Source: Candidatus Zixiibacteriota bacterium (GTDB lineage Bacteria; Zixibacteria; MSB-5A5; GN15; JAAZOE01). Taken from it: a DNA stretch of 64,000 nt. The notes under the pieces are model-generated. The model was not told where the DNA came from, searched no databases, and saw only the letters and a program-made list of their open reading frames with translations. Made by a program: the position numbers and the translations under genes. Numbering within the stretch: the stretch's first letter is position 1; every line of letters begins with the position of its first letter. Location: contig JAZGGI010000048.1 in the NCBI GenBank assembly GCA_036480375.1, positions 1 to 64,000 on the forward strand. The letters are read 5' to 3'. This document shows positions 2,643-7,837 of the stretch, piece by piece.

Positions 2643-2669
2643 TAAAAAACCCTCCCGATTCCGAGAGGG
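2643..2669 (-). terminator. Intrinsic terminator of the chemotaxis receptor gene
   Basis: CCCTC (2650-2654) pairs with GAGGG (2665-2669), extended inward by two more pairs across one mismatch. On the minus strand the hairpin is followed by a run of six T. It lies 30-55 bases past the stop codon of the chemotaxis gene. Confidence 0.75.
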
Positions 2670-2698: not shown

Positions 2699-4360
2699 TT
2701 ATACTTTTTGGATAGTAAAGGCGTCCACTATTTCACGGAGTTCTTCGGCCTGGCGATTCATATTTTGGGCTATATTCGAAGATTCGTCGGCTTGCTCGGA
2801 CGTGTCTTTTGAAACATTCGATATCACCTCAATGCGCTTGGTGACCTCGGCGGCCACCTGTGACTGTTGCTCGGCGGCGGTAGCGATTTGCTCAATCATG
2901 CTCATGACATTATGCGACATTTGTTCGATTTCCGACAGGCTGTTTCCAGCTTCATCGGCCAATTGACGACCCTTTTCGACTTCTTTAATTCCCGATTCCA
3001 TGGAACTAACGGCCTCATTGGTCCGGGTTTGAACTTCCTTGATGACTTCCGCTATTTTACCGGTGGCTTTTGCGGTGCGTTCGGCCAGATTGCGAACTTC
3101 GTCGGCAACCACAGCGAATCCGCGACCCTGCTCACCGGCGCGAGCGGCCTCAATAGCGGCGTTGAGAGCGAGCAGGTTTGTTTGGCTGGCGATATCTTCG
3201 ATTACGCTGATAATTTGACCGATTTTATCGGCCGCTTCTGCCAGTTTACCAATTGAGCCGGCCGATTCGGCGACAACATCGGCAACGGAGTTCATCCCCT
3301 GGATTGTCCGGCTGACTATTTCTCCGCCTGAAGTGGCTGTATCTGATTGTTCCCGGGATGCTTCCGAAGCCTGTCCGGCGTTTCTTGACGATTCCATGAT
3401 TGTGGCGGCCATTTCATCGATTGACGAAGCGACCTGATGAATATGTTCCGTTTGGCTGCGGGCACCGTCATTCATTTTGTTTGAGGCATCTGAAATATCA
3501 GTAGCGGCGACGACGAGATTACCGGCGCTGGTTTCCAATTGACGCACCATATCGGTCAGGTTCTCGACCATGGAACGGAACGAATTGCCCAGGGTGTCTT
3601 CGGCCGATTTTGCTTCAACTTTGCAGGTCAGATCACCACTGGCTATCCGTTGTGCCTGTTCCGATAGATATTGGAGATAATCCTGAAGGTTTCTGAACGT
3701 ATCCGCCAAACGGCCCAGCTCATCTTTCGAGCGGTAATTAACCTCAAAATCCACATTTCCTACGGCCAATAATCCGGCGCAATTTTCGAGTTCCTGAATC
3801 GGCCTTGACAGAACCCGCTGAAGATTGAAAGCGATAAAAATACCCACTACGGCGCTTCCCAGAAGTACATATAAGCTGATATTTATAAACCAGAACATGC
3901 GGGCCTGCAGTTTATCGAGGTCGGACCTGATCCAGAGAGTACCGATAACTTCATTTCCGGAACTGATATCGCGTTTGATTATGAAATAATTATCCTCGAA
4001 TAATACACCGTCATCGGGCATATTGGGTAAAGTAGCCGGTGGAGGGGAATCATCGCGGGCATATTTTGCAAATTCAGCGGCATCTGTTGTTTGAATCACG
4101 GACCAGGCGATTTGAGGATCGCGTTTTGCGGATTGCAATATTTCTTCGGCCGAATCGTTGTCCTCAAAAGTTACCGCGCTGGCGCAATTATCAGCCATGA
4201 TTTGGGCCAGGAGTCTCGTGTTTTGGACAAGCTCTTTTTGATAGTTTTCGCGGTCGGTAATAATAAAGGCTATCGATGCCAGTATTAGAGTTATAATGCT
4301 TGTCAGGACGATAACTAAAGTAAGTTTTACGCGAATTGAGAAATCATTGAAACGGGTCAT
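2699..4360 (-). CDS. Methyl-accepting chemotaxis protein with CHASE8-like periplasmic sensor
   Basis: A 553-residue transmembrane receptor. TM1 (about residues 13-35) is followed by a periplasmic segment of about 120 residues ([18 protein letters not shown]..., DPQIAWSVI) that resembles the CHASE8 domain of YfiN/DgcN diguanylate cyclases. Then come TM2 (about 155-175), a HAMP domain, a second HAMP-like segment and a full MCP signalling hairpin with the conserved tip ([20 protein letters not shown], then [16 protein letters not shown]). The C-terminus (DAFTIQKV) lacks the CheR-binding pentapeptide. The start at 4360 is chosen because GGGAGAG stands five bases before it and TM1 follows directly; an upstream start at 4453 would add 31 residues. 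By family knowledge it controls CheA kinase activity. It is divergent from a yfiR homologue, the periplasmic partner expected for a CHASE8 sensor. Confidence 0.93.
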
Positions 4361-4500
4361 CTTTACTCTCCCTATGTTGCCAATTACGGATAACCCCGCC
4401 CCATGGCACCTGTATAGACTACTATACAATATCGACCAAAGTAGGAATCTCATTAATCATGGATTCAAACTGACAGGATTATTGCATATTTGATAACTCA

Positions 4501-4536
4501 TTTACAGACAACAGAGATTTTGATATAATAATCTCT
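4501..4536 (+). promoter_or_regulatory. yfiR promoter with operator-like palindrome over the -10 box
   Basis: TTTACA (4501-4506) is followed after 17 bases by a consensus TATAAT (4524-4529). A perfect inverted repeat, AGAGATT (4513-4519) and AATCTCT (4530-4536), encloses the -10 box with a 10-base centre, the placement expected of a repressor site. Which regulator binds is unknown. Confidence 0.6.
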
Positions 4537-4696
4537 ATGATTATGCCCATTAATTTATTTGTGAGACAGTTTGCTCATTATTTATACAATTCTTGTTGTC
4601 CTGGTGTTTCAGATTCGCAATATTGGTATCGATAAGTTATGCCCTGATTTTCTATGGAACGATTTGAGAGGAAAGGGGTTAATAGTATAGCGGGCT

Positions 4697-4760
4697 GTCC
4701 CGATAGAGTAATATATGGGACGCGGCCTACCCAAAAGTCTTGTGAAGATTTCCGGCAGGC
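4697..4760 (+). promoter_or_regulatory. Possible structured leader of yfiR
   Basis: Within the long leader, GTCCC (4697-4701) can pair with GGGAC (4717-4721). GCCT (4725-4728) can pair with AGGC (4757-4760), enclosing AAGTCTT/AAGATTT (4735-4741 and 4745-4751). I could not match this to a known riboswitch. It may be only chance pairing. Confidence 0.25.
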
Positions 4761-4792
4761 TTCTAATAAATTAGGTAAATGGAGAAAGATAT

Positions 4793-5326
4793 ATGAAGTG
4801 TTTAAGTGTCAGCTTATTTGCTTTGCTTTTTATGTGGGTATTAGTTAGCGCCGACGCTGATAGTGACGCTGAATATAAGTCCAAGTTTATCATAAATCTT
4901 GTCGATTATGTTGAATGGCCGGCCGGAGGCGATACCGATAATAAAGGCACAATCGCGATATCAGTAATAGGCGATTCGCCTCTGTTGCCAAAGCTGAAAG
5001 CCATGGCCGAGGCCAAAACCAAAGACGGCAAAAAAATAGTCATTAAGGAAAAAGTTATAAACGAGCAGAGCTATGATTGCCAGATTCTCTTTTTGGCATC
5101 CAAGGAAACCTCTGATTTGGCGAAGGTATTAAAAAAGGTCAAAGGGAACCCGGTTCTGACCGTTAGCGATTGTGAATATTTCGCCAACTACGGAGTCATG
5201 ATTAATTTTTACAATGAAGAAAATGATGGAAAATCAAAAGTGAAATTTGAAGTCAATAAAGCAACCGTTAGTATGGCCGGGCTAAAAATCAGCTCCAAGC
5301 TGTTGAAGCTGGCAAAAATCATTTAG
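4793..5326 (+). CDS. yfiR: YfiR family (DUF4154) periplasmic protein
   Basis: The 177-residue product begins with a signal peptide (MKCLSVSLFALLFMWVLVSADA) and matches the YfiR/DUF4154 pattern: an early KFIINLVDYVEWP, then ISVIGDSPL, CQILFLA, and a late GVMINFYNEENDGKSKVKFE followed by INKA-like and LKISSKLLKLAK segments. In Pseudomonas, YfiR is a periplasmic repressor of the diguanylate cyclase YfiN and binds its periplasmic sensor. Here the divergent neighbour is a chemotaxis receptor with a similar sensor, so that receptor is the likely partner (inference). The SD GGAGAAAG precedes the ATG by four bases. A terminator follows at 5349. Confidence 0.88.
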   Translation: MKCLSVSLFALLFMWVLVSADADSDAEYKSKFIINLVDYVEWPAGGDTDNKGTIAISVIGDSPLLPKLKAMAEAKTKDGKKIVIKEKVINEQSYDCQILFLASKETSDLAKVLKKVKGNPVLTVSDCEYFANYGVMINFYNEENDGKSKVKFEVNKATVSMAGLKISSKLLKLAKII

Positions 5327-5348
5327 TCAAAATAGTCCTATGATTTAG

Positions 5349-5373
5349 ACCCGTCATCGCTGGCGGGTTTTTT
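5349..5373 (+). terminator. Intrinsic terminator after yfiR
   Basis: ACCCG (5349-5353) pairs with CGGGT (5364-5368) and runs into a T tract. It lies 22 bases after the yfiR stop and overlaps the 3' end of the convergent FlaR-like gene. Confidence 0.7.
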
Positions 5374-5899
5374 ATTGCCTGAGAGTTTCTATAAATTGGT
5401 TCACAGATTTTCTATATTTGAAAATGATACTTCGATCAATCATATTGTATTTTGATATTGTTTCAAGTATCCTCGGGTGGTTAACTTTTTTGAATTCCCA
5501 AATCCATTTTATGAATTCCCAGTCAAATTTTTCAGGACATCCATCGGCCATATCGGGCCGCACCCTGCCGTAGCTTCGAATTATTCTCCCGGTAATATTC
5601 CAGAGACAATTTATAGTCGAAAAATCAAGATAAATAACCGCATCGGCTCGTTCGATTCGTTCCTTAAATGTATCTGTATAGTTTCCATCAATAATCCACT
5701 GGTCGAGTTGGATCAATTCGTTAAGTTTACATCGCCATTGCTCCGGCTCGGGTTCAAGCCACCCGGGATGCCAAAAATATTTATCGAGATGAAACACCGG
5801 AAGCTGTAGGATATCTCCCAGTCGAGCGGCCAGGGTAGACTTACCAGAACCGCCGTTTCCCAGAATTATGATTCGTTTGGCATGAGTTATATCAAACAC
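5372..5899 (-). CDS. P-loop NTPase of the FlaR/topology-modulation (adenylate-kinase-like) family
   Basis: A 175-residue cytosolic protein with an N-terminal Walker A motif, ILGNGGSGKSTLAARL (about residues 11-26), and the family's following block PVFHLDKYFWHPGW. WIIDGNYT and the later RIIRSYGRVRPDMADGCPE lid-like region are also typical of small adenylate-kinase-like proteins annotated as DNA topology modulation protein FlaR. The true substrate of this family is unsettled, so the name implies no established role here. It is a single gene between two terminators and converges with yfiR. Confidence 0.8.
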   Translation of the reverse strand: MFDITHAKRIIILGNGGSGKSTLAARLGDILQLPVFHLDKYFWHPGWLEPEPEQWRCKLNELIQLDQWIIDGNYTDTFKERIERADAVIYLDFSTINCLWNITGRIIRSYGRVRPDMADGCPEKFDWEFIKWIWEFKKVNHPRILETISKYNMIDRSIIFKYRKSVNQFIETLRQ

Positions 5900-5941
5900 G
5901 CGAGATATATACTCGATATTTGAAAAAGACGCAAATCAAAG

Positions 5942-5976
5942 ATAAAAAAAAGACCGACCCAATCGGGTCGATCTTT
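5942..5976 (-). terminator. Terminator of the sigma/anti-sigma operon
   Basis: CGACCC (5955-5960), loop AATC, and GGGTCG (5965-5970) form a hairpin extended by an outer AAGA/TCTT stem, with A-runs on the left that become T-runs on the minus strand. It lies just past the anti-sigma stop at 6003. The dyad could also work in the other direction. Confidence 0.75.
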
Positions 5977-6002
5977 AAGTCATTAAAATTAATTTATTGA
6001 AA

Positions 6003-7283
6003 TTATTTGAGCAAGCTCATCTTTTTGGAAGTTGTAATTTCTCCGGCGGTCAATCGATAAAGGTAAATACCCGAAGCGACTTTTTCGCCGTTAGAATTGG
6101 TGGCATCCCAGGTTACCGAATGCTGACCGGCCGAGAAATATTTGTCAACCAGAGTTTTAACTCTCTGTCCGTTTATATTATAGACTTCCAATAGTACATC
6201 TTCCGCCTCGGGAATAGAGAATTGAATAGTCGTAGTAGGGTTGAATGGGTTGGGATAGTTTTGCTTGAGTTCAAAACCATCAGGTAAGGCGGCATCAATT
6301 GGCTTATGTGAAAAAATCATTTCGGCCTCATGATCAGAATGGGCATTGTCATCCTTGGTGTTAAATTCAATGTGGGGGTCGCCGGTAGCTTTTAGTTTTT
6401 CCCAGAATTCGGGATCGTTCTGATCCAGTTCGTAAAGAACACCCTCGGCGGTAGAGCCTTTCCAGATGATTCTATTATCGTCTTCAGGAGTATCGATATC
6501 ACCACCCTCTGAAATAAAGATGGTAAAAGACCCTTCGTGGAGTCCTTTAAGCATTTCTATTTTTTGAACGGCCTCTTCATGAATACCATCTTCATCCATA
6601 CGTTGCAAATGCATTTCGGAAAAAAATATATGTTTAGCATGTTTCAGAAGAGATACCATTTCGCCATCAGAAATTTCTTTAACTTCCTTTATTACACAAT
6701 TACCGAGCTCATCAAATGTTTCGATAATAAGTTGCATTTCATATTCTGATTTCAGGTCAGTGATCGTCAATTCACAGGTCGCCTCGCAATCGCCAACCTT
6801 GTAATCGACATCACCCAATCCAAGAGCGACAAACAATTCAGTTATTTTATCTTCATCCATAGCCAGATTTTTATCGACTCCGGCGACGGCGACTTCATAC
6901 CCTATAGTTCGGTCGAATTTAAATGGTATCAGGGTTGTGAATAGGAGAAGGATAATGACAGTTCCTAATGAAATACTCAAACGGGGGCGAGCCCGCAATT
7001 GTCTTTTAATAGCGCTCATAATTTTAAACTCCTCAGGTTTTTCGGACTGGCTCATTCCCGCGATTGATTCTATTCTTTTCCGCAGGTTGGCAACAGATAC
7101 TCCGTCATTATCATCGATGGCCGCGACGGTATCCAAATCTCGACTGATTGTTCGCTCGGCCTGAGCGAACAGGGCGCACTCGGGACAGGATTGGATATGC
7201 CGCTTGATATCTTCATCCATTGATCCGGATGAGAGTTTTTGGCTCAGGTCGGCTATTCGTTTACGGGCTTCGTGACAACGCAT
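6003..7283 (-). CDS. Zinc-finger anti-sigma factor with C-terminal FlgD-like/type IX-style domain
   Basis: 426 residues. The N-terminus carries the zinc-binding anti-sigma signature H29-x3-C33-x2-C36 (HIQSCPEC). One membrane helix follows at about residues 101-121 (LGTVIILLLFTTLIPF), then a periplasmic region of about 220 residues. The last 85 residues are a FlgD-like Ig/type IX sorting domain (YPNPFNPTTTIQF, GQRVKTL, GEKVASGIYLYRL, KKMSLLK). By family knowledge the N-terminal domain holds the ECF sigma factor at the membrane until a signal frees it. The gene overlaps the upstream sigma gene by 31 bases. The combination of a membrane-anchored anti-sigma factor with a sorting-type C-terminus is unusual. 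Confidence 0.88.
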   Translation of the reverse strand: MRCHEARKRIADLSQKLSSGSMDEDIKRHIQSCPECALFAQAERTISRDLDTVAAIDDNDGVSVANLRKRIESIAGMSQSEKPEEFKIMSAIKRQLRARPRLSISLGTVIILLLFTTLIPFKFDRTIGYEVAVAGVDKNLAMDEDKITELFVALGLGDVDYKVGDCEATCELTITDLKSEYEMQLIIETFDELGNCVIKEVKEISDGEMVSLLKHAKHIFFSEMHLQRMDEDGIHEEAVQKIEMLKGLHEGSFTIFISEGGDIDTPEDDNRIIWKGSTAEGVLYELDQNDPEFWEKLKATGDPHIEFNTKDDNAHSDHEAEMIFSHKPIDAALPDGFELKQNYPNPFNPTTTIQFSIPEAEDVLLEVYNINGQRVKTLVDKYFSAGQHSVTWDATNSNGEKVASGIYLYRLTAGEITTSKKMSLLK

Positions 7284-7837
7284 ACCTTGTCCTCTTGAAA
7301 TTTAATGTTTTCGTTTCTCGATGAACCGGTCATTTTCAAATGCTTCATTAACGCCTGGCGCATTTTCCGGCGGCAGCGCGATAAACGCATTTTGACGGCG
7401 GATTGCGAAAGGCCTTTCATTTCAGCCAGTTCGGCGATGGTCCAGCCTTGCATTTCAAAGAGCGTAATCAGCGCTCGGTCAACCGGCTCGACGGCGCGAA
7501 ACGCAATTTCAAGTCTGCGTCGGGCGGTATAAAGCGAGGTCGGGTCCTCTCCGGATACCGATTCAAGAAAATCCGGTGTCGAAGGAAGAACTTTCTTCCA
7601 CCAGGGACTCTTGACGCGGTTCCGAAAAGAATTGACTATTATTCGATATAGCCAGGGTCGAAATGAATCGGTCGACTCCAGCCGCTCGAATTGTGTCAAC
7701 GCCTTGACCAGAGAATCCTGATACAAATCGTCGCCGTCATCCCGGTTGTTAGTCAGCTTGCGACAAAACGCTCGCGCCTTGACATGTTCCGGTTCAACTA
7801 ATTTCCAGAATAGGTCCCTATGTCGGTTCATCTGCAC
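7253..7837 (-). CDS. ECF-type RNA polymerase sigma factor
   Basis: 194 residues with region 2 (RDDGDDLYQDSLVKALTQFERLE...FRPWLYRIIVNSFRNR) and region 4 (FEMQGWTIAELAEMKGLSQSAVKMRLSRCRRKMRQAL), and no region 1 or 3, as in extracytoplasmic-function sigma factors. The frame opens with GTG at 7837; an in-frame ATG at 7831 is equally possible, with only a weak AGGTG nearby. It overlaps the anti-sigma gene by 31 bases, so the pair is probably co-translated. Downstream targets cannot be told from the sequence. The tail after residue 165 is longer than usual. Confidence 0.9.
   Translation of the reverse strand: MQMNRHRDLFWKLVEPEHVKARAFCRKLTNNRDDGDDLYQDSLVKALTQFERLESTDSFRPWLYRIIVNSFRNRVKSPWWKKVLPSTPDFLESVSGEDPTSLYTARRRLEIAFRAVEPVDRALITLFEMQGWTIAELAEMKGLSQSAVKMRLSRCRRKMRQALMKHLKMTGSSRNENIKFQEDKVCVVTKPVNE

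Follow-up and report, generated by a model that had tools for sequence, protein, structure and literature searches.

A YfiR homologue and a CHASE8 chemotaxis receptor encoded side by side: a probable route from the periplasm to the flagellar motor

We found a yfiR homologue next to the gene for a chemotaxis receptor with a CHASE8 periplasmic sensor in the window, the 64,000-nucleotide stretch of DNA analysed here. The two proteins very probably form one signalling unit that feeds chemotaxis, because the residues proposed for YfiR-sensor contact are conserved, the genome encodes a single CheA, the gene pair recurs in related genomes and the trees of both partners agree. The explanation that we consider probable in its full form is a periplasm-to-chemotaxis unit in which YfiR binds an exposed SAVTF patch of the sensor and the receptor acts through CheA on the flagellar motor.

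Results

Architecture of the gene pair

The receptor gene (2699-4360, reverse strand) encodes 553 amino acids; its reading frame is open upstream to a first start at 4453, and we set the start at the ATG at 4360, from which its relatives align. The protein begins with a transmembrane helix (residues 13-35, 4256-4324, from hydropathy and sequence), followed by the CHASE8 domain (residues 41-144, 3929-4240), a second transmembrane helix (residues 157-180, 3821-3892, from hydropathy), two HAMP domains in tandem (about residues 182-282, 3515-3817, the second boundary being placed by eye) and an MCP signalling hairpin (2813-3367), all on the reverse strand. In the Pfam search, CHASE8 (PF17152) scored 58.2 bits (E 1e-15, cut-off 27), HAMP (PF00672) matched in two stretches and MCPsignal (PF00015) scored 161.5 bits, all above the curated cut-offs; a genome-wide CHASE8 search gave the sensor 60.9 bits. 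The CheA/CheW-contacting tip, located from its sequence at 3113-3187, is canonical. Pfam detected no GGDEF output domain in the receptor, which carries MCPsignal instead.

The divergent yfiR homologue (4793-5326, forward strand, 432 bp from the receptor gene) encodes a DUF4154 protein of 177 amino acids with a signal-peptide-like N-terminus, matching Pfam PF13689 'YfiR/HmsC-like' with 118.4 bits (cut-off 24.9). Its nearest solved structures by sequence are those of Pseudomonas aeruginosa YfiR (E = 5e-6). The sequence-only reading of this DNA had described just such a couple, a YfiR homologue beside a divergent receptor with a CHASE8-like sensor and an MCP hairpin as output, and the positions, profile matches, canonical tip and conserved YfiR-contact motif (see below) bear out each part of this description.

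The identification of the sensor as CHASE8 is based on sequence profiles, and the single-sequence AlphaFold2 models of sensor and YfiR (pLDDT 50.7 and 36.6) were too poor to use. In NCBIfam, the N-terminal half of the receptor scored 149 bits against NF053592 'HK_near_YfiR_like' (cut-off 194) and its sensor half 57.7 bits against DgcN/YfiN, below the equivalog cut-off, as one would expect of a family member whose output differs. The small protein likewise stayed below the cut-offs, with 108.5 bits against NF053591 'YfiR_like_TOL0243' (cut-off 125) and 43.7 bits against YfiR.

A pattern scan placed a promoter-like site toward yfiR at 4501-4529 on the forward strand (hexamers TTTACA and TATAAT spaced by 17 nucleotides, the latter preceded by TG; 11 of 12 positions matching), a match to consensus only. 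Terminator-like hairpins lie 3' of the receptor gene (2650-2667, reverse strand) and 3' of yfiR (5347-5370, forward strand), the total number of such hairpins not exceeding that in shuffled sequence. Beyond yfiR, the region 5372-7837 encodes an AAA-like protein, a FlgD_ig protein and a sigma factor; a Pfam scan of these neighbours revealed no gene for a YfiB OmpA-like lipoprotein. Within this region (6003-7837), the Sigma-70-like (ECF-type) factor gene overlaps the gene for the protein that joins a zinc-finger-like N-terminus to a FlgD_ig/Por_Secre_tail C-terminus.

Conservation and co-inheritance of the pair

A survey of genomes for yfiR next to MCP genes, which the sequence-only reading had suggested, confirmed that the gene pair is conserved: of the 132 genomes surveyed in the phylum, 12 contain such neighbours, 13 pairs in all. 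Five pairs are divergent and eight are co-directional, and for pairs with assigned starts the gaps measure 13 to 443 bp. Seven of these pairs, including that of the window, have a sensor with a Pfam-level CHASE8 match (type A); one further pair contains the second receptor of genome G074, which is more divergent and still a Pfam-level CHASE8 protein; and in five (type B) the sensor lies below the Pfam cut-off and was matched by a purpose-built profile at 91-136 bits. The ninth Pfam-level CHASE8-MCP, in G039, has its YfiR on a different contig. Each of the nine genomes that carry a Pfam-level CHASE8-MCP thus encodes YfiR, compared with 55 of 132 overall, a coincidence of about 0.00025 by simple draws (calculated by hand and ignoring relatedness). 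Given its recurrence in 12 genomes, the pairing far exceeds chance.

Both partners also appear to have been inherited together. For 35 YfiRs and the sensors beside them, the distance matrices correlate with r = 0.87 (Mantel), the best of 5000 permutations reaching 0.31, and type A alone gives r = 0.79 (exact p = 0.0006), species kinship being ignored in both cases. In the sensor tree, types A and B form one group each. Among the YfiRs, type B clusters as a single group that includes an orphan, and type A is scattered across several branches within one large part of the tree, interspersed with orphans. The partner type switches at least three times on both trees, which have long branches and low support; this fits, tentatively, a repeated exchange of outputs. 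The tree of signalling domains is too poorly resolved to separate the origins of types A and B. We consider it possible, if rather less probable than not, that chemotaxis receptors of this phylum were fused with the YfiR-CHASE8 module on more than one occasion (type A, type B and the second receptor of G074), and that YfiR acts as a general periplasmic adaptor through which the flagellar motor can be informed of envelope state or of a bound ligand without a c-di-GMP step.

Two other phyla, those of a Desulfofervidaceae relative (395 genomes) and of a Nitrospinota relative (77 genomes), yielded 106 CHASE8 proteins, of which 84 adjoin yfiR and none is an MCP. Adjacency of YfiR and CHASE8 is therefore the rule, and an MCP output is rare in the genomes surveyed. 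A search of contigs with the receptor returned only two unrelated MCPs, and plasmid records gave weak matches, one to YfiR and three to the sensor.

Conserved residues at the proposed contact site

Malone et al. (2012, PMC3375315) proposed that YfiR, through a hydrophobic C-terminal patch, binds the PAS domain of YfiN at an exposed AAVVF motif. Alignment with E. coli DgcN/YfiN and a motif count place SAVTF (residues 61-65; 4166-4180, reverse strand) at this site of the window receptor, and A62, V63 and F65 are invariant over the aligned type-A relatives and E. coli DgcN. The pattern A-[VILM]-x-F occurs there in 7 of the 13 MCP-paired sensors, namely the adjacent type-A CHASE8-MCPs, compared with none of 18 CHASE8-like histidine kinases from the same phylum that lack a neighbouring yfiR and have G in place of A; Phe at the F65 position does not discriminate by itself. 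On the YfiR side, the P. aeruginosa contacts F162, E163 and L183 align with F152, E153 and L173 of the window protein, and F152, N155 and L171 do not vary in the alignment, which includes E. coli YfiR, while L173 is almost invariant. Type-B pairs have largely lost both the AAVVF-type motif and the F/E contacts of YfiR.

Elsewhere in the genome, contig C16 carries a second YfiR system (about 98106-103661, L123), which consists of a TonB-dependent receptor, a YfiR and a hybrid histidine kinase; the sensor of this kinase has an sCache_4 match and a weak CHASE8 match. In many relatives, the same upstream position is taken by a gene of about 700 amino acids, the TonB-dependent receptor of C16 being the sole one scanned.

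With a second YfiR-linked receptor in the genome, and with CHASE8 belonging to a Cache-like clan of cell-surface sensor domains (PMC8846402), the window receptor could instead sense a small molecule directly through its Cache-type domain, and the adjoining yfiR could mainly serve another partner such as the C16 kinase. We regard this as unlikely: that kinase has its own adjacent yfiR, each of the two trees places the YfiR/sensor pairs apart, the genes stay adjacent whether divergent or co-directional, and the contact motif is retained.

Chemotaxis machinery of the genome

The genome (3.6 Mb in 50 contigs, 97% complete) has only three MCPs above the Pfam cut-off and a single CheA, which is encoded on contig C3 in a cluster with FliF-, FliE-, FlgC- and FlgB-like proteins, MotB, MotA, CheB, CheZ, CheY and CheR; all of these except CheA and CheZ were named by eye from their sequences. 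Among pair-bearing genomes with a completeness of 90% or more, all ten encode CheA; the three without a match are 70-87% complete. The earlier suggestion that periplasmic sensing feeds a CheA pathway is thus supported by the profile match, the contact motif, the conserved and co-inherited pair and the complete flagellar che operon.

From the tip residue Glu410 to the conserved end at Phe548, the receptor spans 138 residues by hand count, as does a dCache receptor of the same genome; from comparison with Tsr, this presumably places it in the 40-heptad class. Equal tip-to-end lengths would allow mixed receptor arrays. Scanning the receptor for CheR-type methylation motifs yielded no strict and four relaxed matches.

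A CheA-dependent output other than swimming, such as surface sensing or c-di-GMP control of the Wsp type, would be in keeping with the control of biofilm formation by YfiR systems elsewhere (PMC3375315) and with several CheW-like genes that lie away from the che cluster. That the sole CheA sits among motA/motB, flagellar rod and cheB/cheR/cheY/cheZ genes, with no second chemosensory operon seen in the genome, makes such an output improbable, marginally more so than direct sensing by the receptor. A 25-bit 'MCP' candidate on contig C33 was rejected, as it is a CheW-domain protein (L131:5431-6504) with an MCP-like tail; its C-terminal part weakly resembles the second half of the MCP signalling domain (23.3 bits, below the cut-off).

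Discussion

Proposed mechanism and nature of the stimulus

In the signalling unit that we favour, YfiR would be exported to the periplasm and would bind the receptor's CHASE8 domain at the exposed SAVTF patch, much as has been proposed for YfiR and YfiN. Bound and free YfiR, or YfiR changed by a ligand, would favour different receptor states, which could be passed through the second transmembrane helix and the two HAMP domains to the MCP hairpin. The hairpin would then set the activity of the genome's only CheA and, by way of CheY-P, presumably the flagellar motor. The result would be a two-part receptor, in which soluble YfiR carries the stimulus, the CHASE8-MCP transduces it and CheA provides the output. 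That YfiR restrains its partner cannot be carried over from YfiBNR to this receptor, and its effect may be to excite or to silence.

P. aeruginosa YfiR has two cysteine pairs (Cys71-Cys110 and Cys145-Cys152), which are a feature of that protein and not of the Pfam family. The window YfiR does not keep them: position 110 alone is matched by a cysteine, C96, and A131 and N138 stand at positions 145 and 152. A cysteine at the position of C110 occurs in 4 of the 13 MCP-paired YfiRs. Owing to the absence of these pairs, we rejected a redox switch that works by way of the known disulfides as unlikely. Since there is also no yfiB nearby and the YfiR fold is related to substrate-binding domains, solute sensing by way of a bound ligand and envelope sensing are equally plausible.

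YfiR could accordingly act as a solute-binding protein that docks on the receptor when loaded with its ligand and reports a nutrient or metabolite, in the manner of maltose-binding protein and Tar, rather than exerting restraint like the repressor of YfiBNR. This variant of the favoured explanation, with which its likelihood overlaps, is a serious possibility at somewhat less than even chances. YfiR resembles the domains with which ABC transporters bind their substrates (PMC4655355), the P. aeruginosa protein has a weak affinity for vitamin B6 or L-Trp (PMC4887326), and the second yfiR of the genome follows a TonB-dependent receptor gene; the missing redox-sensing cysteine pairs and the lack of a YfiB-like gene among the scanned neighbours at 5372-7837 point the same way. 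The yfiR of the window, however, is adjoined by no transporter or TonB gene.

Relation to known systems

Some chemoreceptors perceive a stimulus by way of a periplasmic binding protein, as Tar does with maltose-binding protein. The window pair resembles this type in that the presumed stimulus of the MCP is a soluble periplasmic protein, and differs in that YfiR is not a classical solute-binding protein. With YfiBNR of P. aeruginosa and E. coli (AwsXRO, TpbB/DgcN) it shares a DUF4154 YfiR adjoining a CHASE8-HAMP receptor and the conserved contact residues, whereas it has an MCP hairpin in place of GGDEF, two HAMP domains, divergent genes, no yfiB seen nearby and neither cysteine pair. The YfiR-linked sensor kinases (NF053592 with NF053591) are likewise close in their sensor half, at the above 149 bits, and in their yfiR-like neighbour, but the receptor stays under the family cut-off and has an MCP hairpin in place of the kinase output.

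The idea of a YfiR-MCP couple is already known, in passing: in one clause of their Discussion, based on an in silico survey, Malone et al. (2012, PMC3375315) list MCP domains among the outputs of the YfiR-YfiN[PAS] core module; in the literature searched, no other paper mentions both YfiN and an MCP domain. The window pair corresponds to that module in the idea of a YfiR-bound sensor with exchanged outputs, MCP included, and adds a member from another lineage, for which pair conservation, co-inheritance and chemotaxis context were measured here. New in our study are the rarity of the arrangement, its conservation in the phylum, its possibly repeated acquisition and its chemotaxis context; our literature search found no experimental work on such a YfiR-MCP couple.

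The known role of YfiR systems is that of a switch which raises c-di-GMP and so causes bacteria to settle. If this periplasmic signal also steers swimming, one envelope-sensing module would serve both choices, and a chemotaxis read-out would provide a fast assay for the YfiR stimulus. The natural MCP version furthermore marks where the sensor can be cut and fused to a different output.

Other YfiR and CHASE8 proteins of the phylum

More than 20 YfiRs close to that of the window stand alone, with no adjoining CHASE8 gene (L075, L082, L084, L086, L089-L105), and their neighbours are conserved within small groups only. Because such solitary members of the same subtype exist, some of them in genomes devoid of MCPs (G025, G026, G027, G078), the subtype can, judging from these gene contexts, have other work. 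Weak CHASE8 matches in proteins of about 560 amino acids were considered as further MCPs and rejected, since those scanned are histidine kinases and none matches the MCP profile; these kinases (L137-L155) have SGVLF at the motif site and almost no yfiR neighbours, and are widespread in the phylum. In G058 (L122:4925-8983), one type-B receptor and a further gene are flanked by two yfiR genes, a possible duplication of the periplasmic partner.
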